From: Vicinamibacterales bacterium
Lineage (GTDB): Bacteria; Acidobacteriota; Vicinamibacteria; Vicinamibacterales; 2-12-FULL-66-21
Length of the DNA stretch: 64,000 nt
Assembly: GCA_035699745.1 (NCBI GenBank)
Contig: DASSPH010000067.1
Coordinates: forward strand, 62,001 to 126,000
Direction of reading: 5' to 3'
Shown here: positions 22,757 through 34,100 of the stretch, in pieces
Layout: every line of letters starts with the position of its first letter
Numbering within the stretch: position 1 is the stretch's first letter
The notes under the pieces: generated by a model
The model's database searches: none
What the model saw: the letters and a program-made list of their open reading frames with translations, nothing else
What the model was told of the DNA's origin: nothing
Made by a program: the position numbers and the translations under genes

Positions 22757-23920
22757 GTGAAGCCCCTCTACCTCGATTACCACGCCACCACGCCGGTGGA
22801 TCCGCGCGTCCTCGAGGCGATGCTGCCGTTCTTCACCGAGCGGTTCGGCAATCCGAACAGCAAGCAGCACGCCTGGGGCTGGGACGCGCGCGACGCGGTC
22901 GAAGCGGCGCGGGCCCAGGTGGCGGCGCTGATCAACGCCTCTGCCGGCGAAATCGTGTTCACCAGCGGCGCGACCGAGTCGAGCAACCTCGCGCTCCGCG
23001 GCGTGGCGGCGGCGCGCGGCGACGGGCCGCGCCACGTGATCACGACCGCGATCGAGCACAAGTCGGTGCTCGACGTGTGCCGCGGCCTCGAGACCGCCGG
23101 ATGCGCGGTCACGATCCTCGGCGTGAACAGCGGCGGGCTGGTCGATCCGGCGGCGCTGAAGCGCGCGCTGCGCCCCGAGACGGTGCTCGTCAGCGTGATG
23201 GCGGCGAACAACGAGATCGGCACGGTGCAGCCGATGGCGGCGCTCGGCGCGATCGTGCGCGAGCACGGCGCGCTGTTTCACACCGACGCCGCGCAGGCGG
23301 CCGGCAAGGTGCCGATCGACGTGCGGGCGATGAACGTCGATCTGCTGTCGCTCACCGCGCACAAGTTCTACGGTCCCAAGGGCTGCGGCGCGCTGTTCAT
23401 CCGCAAGGCGCGGCCGCGGATCGCGATCGCGCCGCAGGCGGTCGGCGGCGGGCAGGAGAACGGCGTGCGTTCGGGCACCCTGAACGTGCCGGGGATCGTC
23501 GGTCTCGGCCGTGCGGCGGAGATCTGCCGCGTCGAGATGGCCGGGGAAGCGGCGCGCCTGAGCACGCTGCGCGACCGGCTGCTCCACGGACTCCGCGCCC
23601 GCGTGCCCGGCCTGCGCGTCAATGGCACGCTCGAGCAGCGGCTGCCGCACAACCTGCACATCAGCTTCGACGGCATCGAAGGAGAGCGCCTGCTGATGGC
23701 GCTCGGCGATCTGGCCGTATCCACCGGATCCGCCTGCGCCTCGGGCAGCCAGGCGCCCTCGCACGTCCTGCAGGCGATCGGCGCGACCTCCGACATGGCG
23801 GCCGCCTCCATCCGTTTCGGACTCGGCCGTTCGACGACCGAGGCCGACGTCGATTACGCGATCGAACGCGTCTCAGCCGTGGTCACGGCCCTGCTGGCAA
23901 CGACCTTGCTCTCGCACTGA
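22757..23920 (+). CDS. iscS: Cysteine desulfurase, NifS/IscS class I
   Basis: This is a second cysteine desulfurase. YLDYHATTPVDPRVLEAM is the class I start, TAHKFYGPKGCG holds the PLP lysine, and STGSACASGSQAPSHVL holds the catalytic Cys on the long flexible loop typical of IscS/NifS. It may serve tRNA thiolation or cofactor synthesis (including MoeB) while SufS serves SufBCD; that division is inference. The start is GTG at 22757, 4 nt after the regulator. Confidence 0.95.
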   Translation: MKPLYLDYHATTPVDPRVLEAMLPFFTERFGNPNSKQHAWGWDARDAVEAARAQVAALINASAGEIVFTSGATESSNLALRGVAAARGDGPRHVITTAIEHKSVLDVCRGLETAGCAVTILGVNSGGLVDPAALKRALRPETVLVSVMAANNEIGTVQPMAALGAIVREHGALFHTDAAQAAGKVPIDVRAMNVDLLSLTAHKFYGPKGCGALFIRKARPRIAIAPQAVGGGQENGVRSGTLNVPGIVGLGRAAEICRVEMAGEAARLSTLRDRLLHGLRARVPGLRVNGTLEQRLPHNLHISFDGIEGERLLMALGDLAVSTGSACASGSQAPSHVLQAIGATSDMAAASIRFGLGRSTTEADVDYAIERVSAVVTALLATTLLSH

Positions 23921-23922
23921 GA

Positions 23923-25365
23923 GTGCTCATAGTCGTTTCCAACAGGGAGCCCTATCTTCATCAAACGGCCGAGGACGGATCGGTGGCCGCCGTGCCGACC
24001 ACCGGCGGCGTCGCCGTCGCGCTCGACGCGCTGATGCGCGAACGCGGCGGCACCTGGATCGCGCACGGCGCCGGCGAGGCCGATCGTCAGGTCTGCGATC
24101 CGCGCGACCGCGTGCGCGTGCCGCCCGACGCCCCCGCCTACGATCTCCATCGCATCTGGCTCACCGACGAGGAAGAGCAGCGCTACTACGGCGGCTTCTC
24201 GAACGAGGGCCTCTGGCCGCTGTGCCACACCGTGCACGTGAAGCCGGTGTTCCGCGCGGAGGATTGGGCGGCGTATCAGTCGGTGAACCAGCGCTTCGCC
24301 GAAGCGGTCGCGGAGGATTTGGCCGACGGCACGCCCGTGTTCATCCAGGATTACCACCTCGCGCTCGTCGCCGGCGAGCTGCGCCGTCTCAAGCCGAACG
24401 CGCGGACCGCGATCTTCTGGCACATCCCGTGGCCCAGCGCCGATCGGCTGCGCATGTGCCCGTGGCGGCGCGAGATCCTCGAAGGGCTGCTCGCGAACAA
24501 TCTCATCGCCTTTCAGCTCGAACGCGATCGCCGCAACTTTCTCGCCGCCGTGCGCGAGGAGCTGCGCCTCGAGACGACCACCGGCGGCGTACGCCTCGCC
24601 GGACGCGACGTGCACGTCGTCGCCGTCCCGATCGGCGTGGACTTCGATCGCATCAACGCCACCGCGCGCGATCCCCGGCTGCTGGTCGAGAAGGATCGGC
24701 TGCGCCGCGAGCTGCGCATCGCCGCGCCGATCGTCGGCATCGGGGTCGACCGGCTCGACTACACGAAGGGGATCCCGGAGCGGCTCGACGCGATCGATCG
24801 CCTGCTCGCCGAATCTCCCGAGCTCGCGGCACAGCTGCTCTTCGTCCAGATCGGCGTGCCGTCGCGTTCCCGGCTCGAAAGCTACGCGTCGCTGGAAAAA
24901 GAGATCGACGCCCGCGTCGCCGACATCAACGCCCGCTACGGACGCGGGCCGGCCGACGGCCCGATCCGCTATCGCAAGGGGGCGCTGAAGCTGCGGCGCC
25001 TCGTCGCCCTCTATCAGCTCGCCGACTTCTGCATCGTCAGCTCGCTGCACGACGGCATGAACCTGGTGGCGAAGGAGTTCGTCGCCGCGCGCAACGACGA
25101 AGACGGCGTCCTCGTGCTCAGCGAGCTGACCGGCGCGGCGCAGGAGCTCGGCGAGGCGATCATCATCAATCCCTACGACGGCCGCGGCTTCATCGACGCG
25201 CTGCGCCGGGCGATCAGCATGCCGCCGGAGGAGCGCATGCGCCGGATGCGGCGTCTGCGCCGCGCCGTCGCCGGACGCAGTGTCTTCGCGTGGGCCTCCG
25301 AGATCCTCGACAACCTGCAGCGCATCCAGAGCGGGCGCCGGTCGTGGTTCGGGCGGGTGGCGTGA
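23923..25365 (+). CDS. otsA: Trehalose-6-phosphate synthase (GT20)
   Basis: OtsA joins UDP-glucose (or another NDP-glucose) and glucose-6-phosphate to trehalose-6-phosphate. VVSNREP starts the fold, [12 protein letters not shown] is the donor loop, QDYHLAL and FWHIPWPS line the active site, [14 protein letters not shown] holds the phosphate-binding Arg/Lys, and [13 protein letters not shown] binds the nucleotide sugar. The residue before DGMNLV is His, where most enzymes have Arg. I choose GTG at 23923, 2 nt after the iscS stop. otsB follows by 10 nt. Confidence 0.92.
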
Positions 25366-27117: not shown

Positions 27118-29610
27118 ATGTTCCTGCGACCGAGTTGGCGAGTTGTTCTGTGCGTGCTTGCGGCGCTGCTGCTGACGGCGCTGGACGTGCGTGCACAGAG
27201 CATCGTCGATGCGCGGCGCGTCGAATTCACCCCCTCCCCGCAGCACAACGCCCTGACCACCACGGGCGCCCCGGTGGTCGAGCGGTACACGATCGAGGTC
27301 TTCGTCGCCGGCGGGGTCTGGCCGGTGTCCGGCGCCGATCTCGGCAAGCCGTCGCCCGGCACGGACGGCATGATCCGCCTCGACTTCGTCTCGCTGCTGA
27401 CGACGCCGCTCGCCACCGGCGTCACCTACGAGGCGGTCGTCGAGGCCGTCGGCCCCGGAGGCCGCAGCGGCGGCACGCGCACGAACACGTTCTCGTTCGG
27501 CGGCGTTCCCTGCACGCCTGCGGTCTCGCCGCTCTCCGCGTCGTTTTCCGCCGCAGGTGGAAGCGGCGGCAGCGCCGTGACCGCCGGCTCCGGCTGCGTG
27601 TGGAACGCGACCAGCAACGTCTCGTGGATCACCGTCACGTCCAACGCCTCGGGCTCGGGTTCCGCCAACGTGAGCTTCAGCGTCGCCGAGAATCCGTCGA
27701 CGAGCGGACGCACCGGGACGCTCACCATCGCCGGCGCCACGTTCACCGTCACGCAGGCGGGGGTGGTCTGCACCTACAGCATTTCACCGTCCAGCCAGTC
27801 GTTCACCGCTGCCGGCGGCAGCGGCGCCAGCACCGTGGCAGCGGGATCGGGCTGCGCCTGGACCGCGGCGAGCAATGCCTCCTGGGTCACCGTGACCGGC
27901 GGCGCCTCCGGATCCGGTGGCGGCGTCGTGGGCTTCAGCGTGGCCGCGAATACGGCGACGACCGCGCGCTCGGCCACGCTGACGATCGCCGGCAAGACCT
28001 TCACGGTGACGCAGGCCAACGCGGCGTGCTCCTATAGCATCGCTCCGACCAGCCAGTCGTTTGCCGCTGCGGGCGGAACCGGCAGCAGCGCGGTCACCGC
28101 GGGGTCCGGCTGTGCCTGGAGCGCCACGAGCAACGCGGCGTGGGTGACTGTCACCAACGGCGGGACCGGGTCGGGATCCGGCGGCGTCGGCTTCAGCGTC
28201 GCCGCCAACACCTCGACGCTGGCGCGAACCGGAACGCTCACGATCGCCGGGTCGACGTTCACGATCGACCAGGCGGGCGCGACCTGTTCGCACAGCGTCT
28301 CGCCCAAGAACCAGAACTTCGCCGGCGGCGGCGGCACCGGCGTGAGCACGGTCACCACCGGGCAGGGCTGCGCCTGGAGGGCGACCAGCAACGCCTCCTG
28401 GATCACCGTCATCGAGGGCAGTTCGGGAACCGGGTCCGGCAGCACGGCGTTCACCATCGAGCCGAACACCGGCGACACCGTCCGCACCGGCACGCTGACG
28501 ATCGCGGATGCGACCGTGACGATCACGCAGACGTCGCCGAGTGTCTGCACGCCGACCCTCTCGTCCACCAGCAGCTGGCATACGGCGGACGGCGGTTTCG
28601 GGACGTCGACGGTAACCGCGGAAGCGGCGTGCGAGTGGGATGCGGTCAGCAACGTCGCCTGGGTGGCGGTGATCAATCCGGGCCCGGGCAAGGGCAGCGG
28701 CACCGTCAGCTTCATCGTGGCGTCGTACACCGGATCGGCGACGAGAGTCGGAACGCTCACGATCGCGGGGAAGACCTACACGGTCACGCAGTCCGGCGCG
28801 GGCTGCTCGTTCACCATTTCTCCCTCGAGCCAGGGATTCAGCGGCGCCGGCGGCACGGGAAGCAGCGCCGTCACGACGGCCTCGACCTGTCCGTGGGCGG
28901 CGACCAGCGACGCCACGTGGATAACCATCACCGCCGGCGCCAACGGCACCGGATCGGGCACCGTCGCCTTCACGGTGGCGCCCAACCCCGGGACGACGTC
29001 CCGTACCGGGCGGCTGCTCATCGCCGGAACGAGCTTCACCGTGACGCAGGCGGCGCCGGTCCTCTGCACGGCCACGATGACGCCGACCAGCCGATCCTTC
29101 ACCTCCGACGGCGGGTTCGGCAGCAGCGCCGTCACCGCCGACGCGACCTGCGCGTGGACCGCCGAGAGCAACACCAGCTGGATCGCGGTGCTCAATGCCG
29201 GACCCGGACGGGGCAATGGCACGGTCACGTTCGTCGTCGCGACGAACACGTCCGGCGCCAGCCGTACCGGATCGCTCACGATCGCGGGGAATACCTTCAC
29301 CGTCACCCAGACGGCGACCGCCGCGTGCACCTATACGGTCTCATCCGAAACCGTCACGGTGGCGTCGACGGGCGGCACCACGACGCTGACGGTGACGACG
29401 CAGGGGGGGTGTGCCTGGTCGTCGTCGGGCGCCCCCACGTGGATGACGCTGACGGGCAGCGGTTCGGGCAACGGCACGGCGACGATCGTCGTCCCGGCGA
29501 ACACCACCACGGCATCGCGCACGGCGACCGTGACGATCGCCGGACGTTCGGTGACGGTGACGCAGAAGGGCAAGCTCACCGCCCCGACCAACCTGCGCAT
29601 CATCAGGTGA
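27118..29610 (+). CDS. Exported protein with eight BACON-type repeats
   Basis: A signal peptide (hydrophobic core [16 protein letters not shown]) leads to an Ig-like segment and then eight tandem repeats of about 85 residues. Each begins with a Cys and a pattern like SISPSSQSF, continues with GG(S/T)G and a second Cys in GSGCAW, then SW(I/V)TV and GTLTIAG..FTVTQ. BACON domains bind glycans or mucin-like targets in secreted proteins. The two Cys per repeat suggest one disulfide per domain. The final short segment ([11 protein letters not shown]) resembles the start of a truncated fibronectin-like or anchoring segment. It is preceded by a 106-nt gap after mqnD. Confidence 0.88.
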
Positions 29611-29614
29611 GCGT

Positions 29615-30265
29615 CTAGGAGATGACGCCGCGCCGCACCGCGTACAGGACGATCTCCGCCGTGCTGTGGAGATCGAGCTTCTGCAGGATGCGGGCGCGGT
29701 GGGTCTCGACGGTGGTGGGGCTGATCGACAGCAGATCGGCGATGCCCTTGTTGCTGTGCCCCTCGGCGATCAGCTGAAAGATCTCCCGTTCCCGCTCGGA
29801 GAGCGCTTCGTAGCGATCGGCGATGCCTTTGTCGGCGAGATGCCGCACGTAGTCGTCCAGCATCACTTTCGCAACCGCCGGACTGAAGAACGAGCGGCCG
29901 TCGGCCACGTCGGTGACGGCGCGGATCAGGTCGGTGTCCGCGGAGTCTTTGAGCAGGTAGCCTTTCGCCCCCGCCTGCAGCGCCTGCGTGATGTACGCCT
30001 CGTCGGCGTGCATGCTGAGAATCAGCACGCGCACCGCCGGCGCGCGCCGCACGATCTGCCGGGTCGCCTCGATGCCGTTCAGCTGCGGCATGCCGATGTC
30101 CAGCACGGCGATGTCGGGCACCAGGTCGAGCACCTTCCTGACCGCATCGCGGCCGTTGCCGGCTTCGGCCACGACCTCCCAGTCACGCCGCTCCTCGAGG
30201 ATCTTGCGCAGGCCGTGACGGACGATCGTGTGATCGTCGCCGAGGATGATGCGGAGCTTAGCCAG
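29615..30265 (-). CDS. NarL/FixJ-type response regulator, probable CTG start
   Basis: The full receiver domain only appears if translation starts at CTG 30265: it gives LAKLRIILGDDHTIVRHGL with the acidic pair D10/D11, D56 as phosphoacceptor in VLDIGMP, and the conserved Lys in YLLKDS. GGAGG lies 6 nt before this CTG, and no ATG, GTG or TTG is in frame at a suitable place. A GTG at 30172 would remove the acidic pocket. A LuxR-type helix-turn-helix (LSEREREIFQLIAEGHSNKGIA) ends the protein. It overlaps the kinase gene by 8 bp. Confidence 0.88.
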   Translation of the reverse strand: MAKLRIILGDDHTIVRHGLRKILEERRDWEVVAEAGNGRDAVRKVLDLVPDIAVLDIGMPQLNGIEATRQIVRRAPAVRVLILSMHADEAYITQALQAGAKGYLLKDSADTDLIRAVTDVADGRSFFSPAVAKVMLDDYVRHLADKGIADRYEALSEREREIFQLIAEGHSNKGIADLLSISPTTVETHRARILQKLDLHSTAEIVLYAVRRGVIS

Positions 30266-31625
30266 CGAGCGCCTCCATCGCGCCCGTGTCGACGGGCACT
30301 TCCACGGTGAGCCGGGTGCCTTTCCCCGGACCGCTCTCGAGCCGCAGGTCGCCGCGCAGCTGAGCGACGCGCTCGCGGATGCCGACGAGGCCGATGCCCC
30401 GCGAGGCGCCGGGCGCGCCGACTTGATCCGGCCTGAAACCCACCCCGTCGTCCTCGATCGTCACCAGCACCGAATGGGTCAGGCGCTGGAGGAAGACGCG
30501 GCAGGTGGTGGCCTGCGCGTGCTTGGCGACGTTGGTCAAGGCTTCCTGGACGATTCGGTAGATCCCCGCTTCGGTCTCCGGCGCGAGCCGCTCGCTCATG
30601 CCGTCCTGGAGCAGCTCGATGCGCACGCCGTGCCGCCGTCCGAAGCCCTTCAGGTACCAGTCGATCGTCGCCGGCAGGCCGAGATCGTCGAGCATCGAGG
30701 GATGCAGGAGCCGTGACAGGTCGCGCACGGTGTGGAGCGCCCCTTCCGCGATCTTGCGCGCGTCGTTGAGCCCGTCCACGTTGACGCCGGCGGCCTCCGC
30801 CGAGCGCTGCGCCAGCGCGAGCTCCACTTTGATCGCGGTGAGCACCTGCCCGACCTCATCGTGCAGCTCCCGGGCGATGCTGCGCCGTTCTTCTTCCTGC
30901 GCGGTCAGCAGCTGCGACGAGAGCCGCTGCAGGTCGCGCGCCGTCTCGACGTCGCGTTCGCGCTGCCGCTTGAGCCGCTCCTCGAGCCGGCCGGCGTAGA
31001 GCGTCGCGACCAGTGCGATGGCGACGCTCGCCGCCAGCGCGAGCCCCACCGTCTCCCAGACGCGGCGCTGCGTCGCGCGGTACAGCGAGGCGATGTCTTC
31101 CTGCTGCTGAACGAAGGCGCTGCGGTTGAGCGCCTGCACCTCCTCCGAGATGTGCATGACGACTTCGCGCCGCGGCATGATGCGCCGCCGCAGCAGGTTG
31201 CGCGCCTCGGCCGGCCATTCGCGGTTGTCGGTCGACAGCACTTCGAACAGCGTCCGGCGGAACTCGTTCAGCTCGCGGCGCAGGCGCTCGATGCGAATCT
31301 GCTCTCCCGGCTCGTCGATGACCGGCACGTAGCCCTTCAATGCCTCGGCGGCGGTGTGATAGCTCTCCTCGAGCTGGTGGCGGTACTGCTCGGCGGTTGC
31401 CGGATTGGGGTCGAGCAGCGCGTCGCGCACGTAGACCGAGCCCATCAGCACGTGGCCGCGAACGGTGGTCAGCAGGTCCTGCGCGCGGGTGTAGCGGGCG
31501 CTGATGTCCGCCGAGCGACGCTCGAGCTCGGCCATGCGGGTGGCGAAGTAGTACCCGGCGAACAGCCAGATTCCCGCGACCAGGCCGAATCCCGCGAACA
31601 TGGCGGCACGGATCGTGGAGATCAC
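30258..31625 (-). CDS. NarX/DegS-type sensor histidine kinase
   Basis: The sensor has a transmembrane helix at residues 8-28, a helical periplasmic sensing region to about residue 190 (CHASE3-like in appearance), a second membrane helix (VGLALAASVAIALVATLYAG), and a HisKA_3 domain whose phospho-His lies in ARELHDEVGQ. The ATPase has NVAKHAQA (N box) and DDGVGF and GIGLVGIRERV (G boxes). The start is GTG at 31625. It pairs with the overlapping response regulator. Confidence 0.93.
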   Translation of the reverse strand: MISTIRAAMFAGFGLVAGIWLFAGYYFATRMAELERRSADISARYTRAQDLLTTVRGHVLMGSVYVRDALLDPNPATAEQYRHQLEESYHTAAEALKGYVPVIDEPGEQIRIERLRRELNEFRRTLFEVLSTDNREWPAEARNLLRRRIMPRREVVMHISEEVQALNRSAFVQQQEDIASLYRATQRRVWETVGLALAASVAIALVATLYAGRLEERLKRQRERDVETARDLQRLSSQLLTAQEEERRSIARELHDEVGQVLTAIKVELALAQRSAEAAGVNVDGLNDARKIAEGALHTVRDLSRLLHPSMLDDLGLPATIDWYLKGFGRRHGVRIELLQDGMSERLAPETEAGIYRIVQEALTNVAKHAQATTCRVFLQRLTHSVLVTIEDDGVGFRPDQVGAPGASRGIGLVGIRERVAQLRGDLRLESGPGKGTRLTVEVPVDTGAMEALAG

Positions 31626-32582: not shown

Positions 32583-34100
32583 ATGATGACCGTCTGGAAT
32601 CCCCGCTGGCTCAAGACCGCGCTGCGCAAACACTTCGACGGACAGCAATTGATCGTCGTGGCCAACCGCGAGCCGTGCGTGCACGAGCTCGAGCCGGACG
32701 GGTCGATCGCCGTCCGGCATCCGATCAGCGGTCTCGTCACGGCGCTGGATCCCGTCCTGCGCGCCACCGGCGGAACGTGGATCGCGCACGGCTCCGGTTC
32801 GGCCGATCGGGCGACAGTGGATCGATCCGACCGGCTCCGCGTCGGCGACGCCGGCGCCAGCTACACGCTGCGCCGCGTCTGGCTGACCCGCGGCGAGGAG
32901 CGCGGCTACTATCACGGCTTCTCGAACGGCGCGCTGTGGCCGCTCTGCCACCTGGCCTTCGAGAGCCCGCGGTTCACCCGCTCCGACTGGCGCCATTATC
33001 AGGGGGTCAACCGGCGCTTCGCTGACGCGGTGGTCGCGGAGGCCCACGGGCCGCGGCCGATCGTTCTCGTCCAGGACTACCACTTCGCGCTGCTGCCCGC
33101 GCTCGTCCGCGAGCGGCTGCCGAACGCGACGATCGTGGCGTTCTGGCACATTCCATGGCCCAACGCGGCGCGCTTCAGCCGCCTGCCGCAGGGCGAGGCG
33201 CTCGTCGAAGGTCTCCTCGGCAGCGACATCGTCGGCTTCCAGACCCCCGATCACGCGCGCGCGTTCCTGGAGTGCGTGGAACCGCTCGCAGACGCGCCGG
33301 TGAATCGGCGGAGCGGCGTGGTGCAGCGCCCGCACGGCGCGGCGTCGGTGCGGACGTATCCGATCTCGATCGAATGGCCCAGCCGCTGGGCGGCCGTGTC
33401 GCCGTCGATCGAACAGTGCCGGCGGATCGTGCGAACGGAGCTCGGGATCGACGAAGACGCGCCGATGATGCTCGCCGTCGACCGGCTCGATTACACCAAG
33501 GGCATCGAGGAGCGCCTCGCGGCGATCCGCCGGCTGCTCGCGCGCGGCAACGCGACGGTCGCGCGCCCCGTGTTCGTGCAGGTCGCGGCTCCGAGCCGCA
33601 CGCGCCTCGAACGCTACCAGCAGCTCGGCGAACGCGTCCGCGCGCAGGCTGCGGCGATCAACGAGCGATTCGGCGACGGCGCCTACCAGCCGGTGATCCT
33701 GATCGAGCGCCACCTCGAGCCGTGCGACGTGTTCCGTCTGTATCGCGCCGCCGACGCCTGTCACGTCAACAGCCTGGACGACGGGATGAACCTGGTGGCC
33801 AAGGAGTTCGTCGCGGCGCGCGACGACGAGCAAGGGGTGCTGCTGCTCAGCAGGTTCGCCGGCGCCGCGCGCGACCTGCCGGACGCGCTGCTGATCAATC
33901 CATGCGACATCGACAACGTCGCCGACGCGATCGCCGACGCCCTGACACTGCCTCACGCCGAACAGTCCCGGCGGATGCGCGCCATGCGGTGGCATGTTGC
34001 TGACAGAAATGTATTCAGGTGGGCGGGAGAGCTGCTGCTCGATGCCGCCTCCGTCCGCGGGCTGCGGGCCGGGGAAGGCCCGGTTGCCGCGATCGTGTGA
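32583..34100 (+). CDS. Second GT20 glycosyltransferase (trehalose-6-phosphate-synthase-like)
   Basis: The 505-aa protein is a paralogue of OtsA at 24 kb, sharing [43 protein letters not shown] and [13 protein letters not shown]. The donor-loop GG is replaced ([11 protein letters not shown]) and the residue before DGMNLV is Asp. Its partner phosphatase is MPGP-like and not OtsB. The product may therefore be another phosphorylated glycoside such as glucosylglycerol phosphate, or trehalose-6-phosphate under different control. This is inference from context. Confidence 0.85.

Follow-up and report, generated by a model that had tools for sequence, protein, structure and literature searches.

The window, a stretch of 64,000 nucleotides from contig DASSPH010000067.1 of a Vicinamibacterales bacterium (assembly GCA_035699745.1), carries on its minus strand a sensor histidine kinase gene followed by a response regulator gene, and the reading frame of the latter appears to begin at CTG. 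The elements of this locus are as follows, in window coordinates.

31625-30258, minus strand: partner sensor histidine kinase, 455 amino acids (aa) from GTG, with HisKA_3 and HATPase_c domains; its stop codon TAA is 30260-30258.
30276-30272, minus strand: GGAGG, a Shine-Dalgarno (SD)-like motif within the kinase gene, with 6 nt between it and the CTG.
30265-30263, minus strand: CTG, the proposed start codon, in the column where the orthologues have their start (ATG, GTG or TTG).
30265-30258, minus strand: 8-bp overlap of regulator start and kinase stop, CTGGCTAA.
30172-30170, minus strand: GTG, the nearest standard in-frame start, 31 codons downstream of the CTG.
29615..30265, minus strand: NarL/VraR-type response regulator, 216 aa from CTG, with a receiver at residues 6-117 and a GerE/LuxR helix-turn-helix (HTH) at residues 154-209.

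The coordinates, the 6-nt spacing of the GGAGG and the 8-bp overlap with the kinase gene were first given in a first-pass annotation of this DNA and were all re-derived and found correct. On the plus strand, 27118-29610 encodes an 830-aa protein with many similar repeats, BACON-like by eye, which is convergent with the regulator gene and ends 4 bp from its stop. Two genes resembling trehalose-phosphate synthase by eye (23077-25365 and 32583-34100, plus strand) flank the kinase-regulator pair.

The open frame of the regulator runs from 30460, next to an upstream stop ending at 30461, down to the stop at 29615. Before GTG 30172 it contains no ATG, GTG or TTG, and the only near-cognate codons among the 65 open codons upstream of CTG 30265 are ATC, ACG, AAG and AGG. 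Read from the CTG, the protein begins with (L/M)AKLRIILGDDHTIV and contains a Response_reg domain at residues 6-117 (Pfam, 95.7 bits, cut-off 30.2) followed by a GerE domain at residues 154-209 (73.1 bits, cut-off 23.5), which is the composition of a NarL/LuxR-type response regulator. As in VraR- and NarL-type regulators, the structure matches span the full length (VraR, E 1.5e-37; NarL, 2.7e-31), and the start codon is the only unusual trait. Five residues, numbered from the CTG, lie at the receiver site, namely D10, D11, D56, S84 and K106; judging from receivers generally, we take D10 and D11 to be the acidic pair, D56 the phospho-acceptor aspartate and K106 the lysine of the site.

Translation could instead begin at GTG 30172, which is the first standard in-frame start and has GGGAGG 2 nt upstream, giving a protein of 185 aa with a receiver devoid of its first strand, first helix and acidic pair. 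The first-pass annotation had argued that this start removes 31 residues, D10 and D11 among them, and that the receiver is complete solely from the CTG. Both points hold, as D10 and D11 are present only in the CTG-started reading, and the Response_reg profile (length 111) is covered from 1 to 110 from the CTG but only from 26 to 110 from the GTG. Moreover, the 30 residues preceding the GTG are conserved as protein, and none of the 24 orthologues described below needs such a truncation, making the shorter product highly improbable.

The orthologues were taken from whole-genome searches at about 65% identity or more (~65-81%), and together with the regulator itself make up 25 rows; L039-L041 and L055 were dropped as duplicates of L010-L012 and L019, and weaker homologues were left out. 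Among the 12 genomes of the family that were considered, none was a second representative of the genus. A related kinase gene lies just upstream on the same strand in 25/25. As the first-pass annotation had suggested, the start codons of these orthologous pairs were compared, and 19 of the 24 orthologues begin in exactly the column of the CTG (9 ATG, 8 GTG and 2 TTG), placing standard starts where a complete receiver requires one; the start codons of the remaining five, likewise standard, lie between -3 and +2 codons from that column. The 8-bp overlap of kinase stop and regulator start recurs in seven orthologues, hence in 8/25 rows (e.g., GTGGCTAA, TTGGCTAA and ATGGCTAG), so that an overlapping kinase-regulator pair, putatively coupled in translation, is conserved in relatives. 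The other 17 orthologues have different kinase-regulator spacings, and in some of them the kinase stop lies clearly upstream of the regulator start.

Over the 24 pairwise comparisons, residues 2-31 gave a pooled pN of 0.166 and pS of 0.511 (ratio 0.325) and residues 32-216 a pN of 0.174 and pS of 0.473 (ratio 0.367), figures in which the regulator stands on one side of every comparison and much of the change may date to branches with a standard start. Conservation at the protein level is thus as strong in the first 30 residues as in the remainder, which speaks to the purpose of the gene rather than to the expression of this copy.

The regulator frame is +1 relative to the kinase frame, and this offset, together with the GGAGG upstream, raised the possibility that ribosomes shift by +1 where the kinase ends (GGC TAA G) and so make the two proteins as one. 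A +1 slip from GGC to GCT re-pairs poorly, however, and the SD spacing at this stop is presumably unlike that of prfB. The orthologues, furthermore, have a start codon of their own at the junction, and in some the kinase stop is clearly upstream of it. Because the orthologues restart with their own codon, the fusion was rejected and is, like the GTG start, hardly credible.

In a tree calculated with the first four residues omitted, the regulator groups with L010, from the same family, with support of 93/87. L010 reads CTCGATG where the regulator reads CTCGCTG, one base apart, and the next relatives beyond it carry both ATG and GTG, so that the ancestral codon may have been either of these. Given an ATG only one base away in the sister gene, the simplest history would be a single base change from a standard start codon. 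The sister sequence bears also on an assembly artifact, in which a base error or the consensus of a minority strain hides a true ATG, GTG or TTG and the gene is ordinary. Such an error would be a single base, CTG starts are rare, the genome is an assembly of 110 contigs, and its nearest named relatives are metagenome-assembled. On the other hand, one change turns ATG into any of seven non-standard codons, of which the one found, CTG, is the likeliest to work, and GGAGG lies at the right distance from it. The kinase and regulator frames are both intact, and the genome holds a second CTG case of different origin (L166, see below). An error of this kind is therefore considered unlikely. The first-pass annotation had named two things that together would speak against a CTG start, and of these an orthologue with ATG at the homologous position does exist (L010), but the assembled sequence itself gives no evidence of an error at this site.

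Another possibility is that the start has just been lost, leaving a gene at the onset of decay with little or no regulator made. CUG is a very weak start, as described in the available part of PMC11497404, and a very recent event would leave no trace of the kind sought here. Still, the gene encodes a complete protein that retains its receiver-site residues, and the terminal branch of the regulator (0.096) is shorter than that of its sister L010 (0.16), which gives no indication of decay; a recent loss is regarded as very unlikely.

Next to its position in the start column, the CTG has a ribosome-binding site at a proper distance. In the sampled genes, GGAGG lies 5-9 nt upstream of 25/342 called starts and of 36/7765 in-frame CTG codons (0.46%), CTG making up 5.35% of in-frame codons; the placement of this CTG behind GGAGG and on the start column of the orthologues is more than chance. 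GGAGG at 6 nt also occurs in four of the 24 orthologues (L016, L019, L049 and L052) and at 8 nt in L042, and the sister L010 has only GGA. A search of the assembly for 16S rRNA gave no match. Folding revealed no special mRNA structure at the start of either the CTG regulator (z 0.20) or the second case, L166 (z -0.59).

Relaxed initiation throughout the genome was also considered and is rejected as far as tested. Initiation factor IF3 is encoded by a single, intact copy. Compared with 22 relatives (a further one, present as two partial pieces, was excluded), it matches at 105/105 of the columns in which these are 95% or more conserved. The initiator tRNA, inspected by eye among the first 30 of 43 tRNA loci in the ARAGORN output, has the usual GGG/CCC anticodon-stem pairs. 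With IF3 and initiator tRNA both normal, the sequences indicate an isolated start-codon switch rather than a relaxed code.

A survey of receiver domains in the genome (G000) returned 96 matches, 93 of them above the Pfam cut-off, of which 91 were examined and two lay outside the examined stretches. Only two of the 91 genes lack any ATG, GTG or TTG in the stretch from the upstream stop to the domain, namely the CTG regulator and the following gene.

G000:C17:22310-23701, plus strand: L166, an NtrC-type response regulator of 464 aa, start CTGAAAGCGCAAATC, with the CTG at L166:1489-1491.

Here, the CTG shares its TG with the stop codon TGA of the upstream gene (CTGA overlap). In most of the 29 listed relatives of L166, a spacer is followed by GTG, TTG or ATG no more than a few codons upstream. 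L166 itself is without that spacer and standard start, from which a short deletion appears the likely origin. In another relative of L166, L252 (G057:C16:36722), no ATG, GTG, TTG or CTG occurs within -15 to +5 codons of the expected start, indicating that start-less cases also occur outside G000.

In a 464-kb sample of G000 (400 kb plus the window, which was included by choice; ~7% of the genome), 14 of 342 called genes were flagged as coding before the first standard start, and among these the CTG regulator alone was judged clear, partly by eye. In ~395 kb of the related genome G008, 10 of 272 genes were flagged, one of them with a plausible CTGA start. This M56-peptidase-like gene (L295:10262-11464; G008:C38:190262, plus strand) seems to begin at a CTG that overlaps the stop of the upstream gene as CTGA; Pfam matches it no earlier than residue 87, which puts the CTG start outside the reach of Pfam. 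On this evidence, CTG starts in the family seem to be rare but not absent.

Bacteria initiate at CUG with their ordinary initiator tRNA, which pairs weakly at the first codon position. That CTG starts are rare in bacteria, as the first-pass annotation had remarked, is borne out by figures quoted second-hand in the available part of PMC11497404, which put CUG at ~0.024% of bacterial starts and its output at ~0.86% of that of AUG, and these values give any CTG start a low prior. Ancestral switches to CUG are likewise scarce: four in total were counted over three sets, comprising 2/61,358 AUG, 1/5,080 GUG and 1/2,468 UUG starts, and where a start had switched to GUG or UUG, a stronger SD signal tended to accompany it, according to the portion of PMC5622118 consulted. 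The strong SD and the overlap at the present locus would fit this pattern of weak starts paired with a stronger SD.

The closest known parallel in signals is the FIB rep gene of E. coli F-like plasmids, for which N-terminal analysis and a CTG-to-CTC mutation proved the CTG start (PMC11983097, as excerpted). Like the regulator, FIB rep combines CTG with a good ribosome-binding site and an in-frame GTG downstream, to which, 14 codons on, it is often misannotated, and its CTG is believed to keep expression low. In contrast to the regulator, it is a plasmid replication gene, its start was proved by experiment whereas the present CTG is known from sequence, and an overlap with an upstream gene is unmentioned in the excerpted text (PMC11983097). 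A second parallel is the Streptomyces sigR gene, whose GTC start acts through IF3 to reduce the amount of sigma factor relative to its partner (PMC5472188, in the part available). Like the present gene, sigR is a regulator gene with a non-standard start; the sigR pair is translationally coupled, and IF3 represses starts of this sort, shifting the ratio between the two partners. The codon differs, however, and IF3 control is shown for sigR but would be a guess for the regulator described here (PMC5472188). In the literature searched, no paper combined Acidobacteria with a CTG start codon, and a search on CTG starts, response regulators and coupling gave nothing on point among the matches listed; CTG or CUG is not mentioned in the part of PMC11445065 available.

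Taken together, the locus is best explained, with a probability of about 0.76, as a functional regulator gene, belonging to an ordinary pair of HisKA_3 kinase and NarL-type regulator, in which a standard NTG start (ATG in the sister) has mutated to CTG. Most likely, the CTG acts as a functional, weakly translated, kinase-coupled start; we infer initiation at this codon, its low yield and its coupling from the features described above. Ribosomes finishing the kinase at TAA 30260 would initiate at the CTG, the overlap letting them restart a few bases back, and ribosomes recruited by the GGAGG 6 nt upstream would do so as well. Initiation would use the normal initiator tRNA and yield the full 216-aa protein with methionine at position 1. 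The amount of regulator per kinase would be much less than with ATG, a deficit for which the strong SD and the overlap would compensate in part.

It could also be speculated that the CTG is kept on purpose, with some regulators of the lineage starting at CTG within an overlap and L166 belonging to the same class. Synthesis would then depend on coupling and IF3, with the regulator far below the kinase in amount, by analogy with the GTC start of sigR. Both the selected codon and this mode of control are rather doubtful.

CTG starts are already known from FIB rep, and the regulator gene is unusual in its start codon but otherwise ordinary. As an instance of a natural switch from a standard start to CTG, it offers a clean case in which the orthologues supply the starting point. 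Standard annotation would probably cut the front end of the protein, as gene callers limited to ATG, GTG and TTG would report a broken receiver for a regulator that is in fact intact. If the CTG is selected, it may provide the bacterium with a cheap way of setting the ratio of kinase to regulator.
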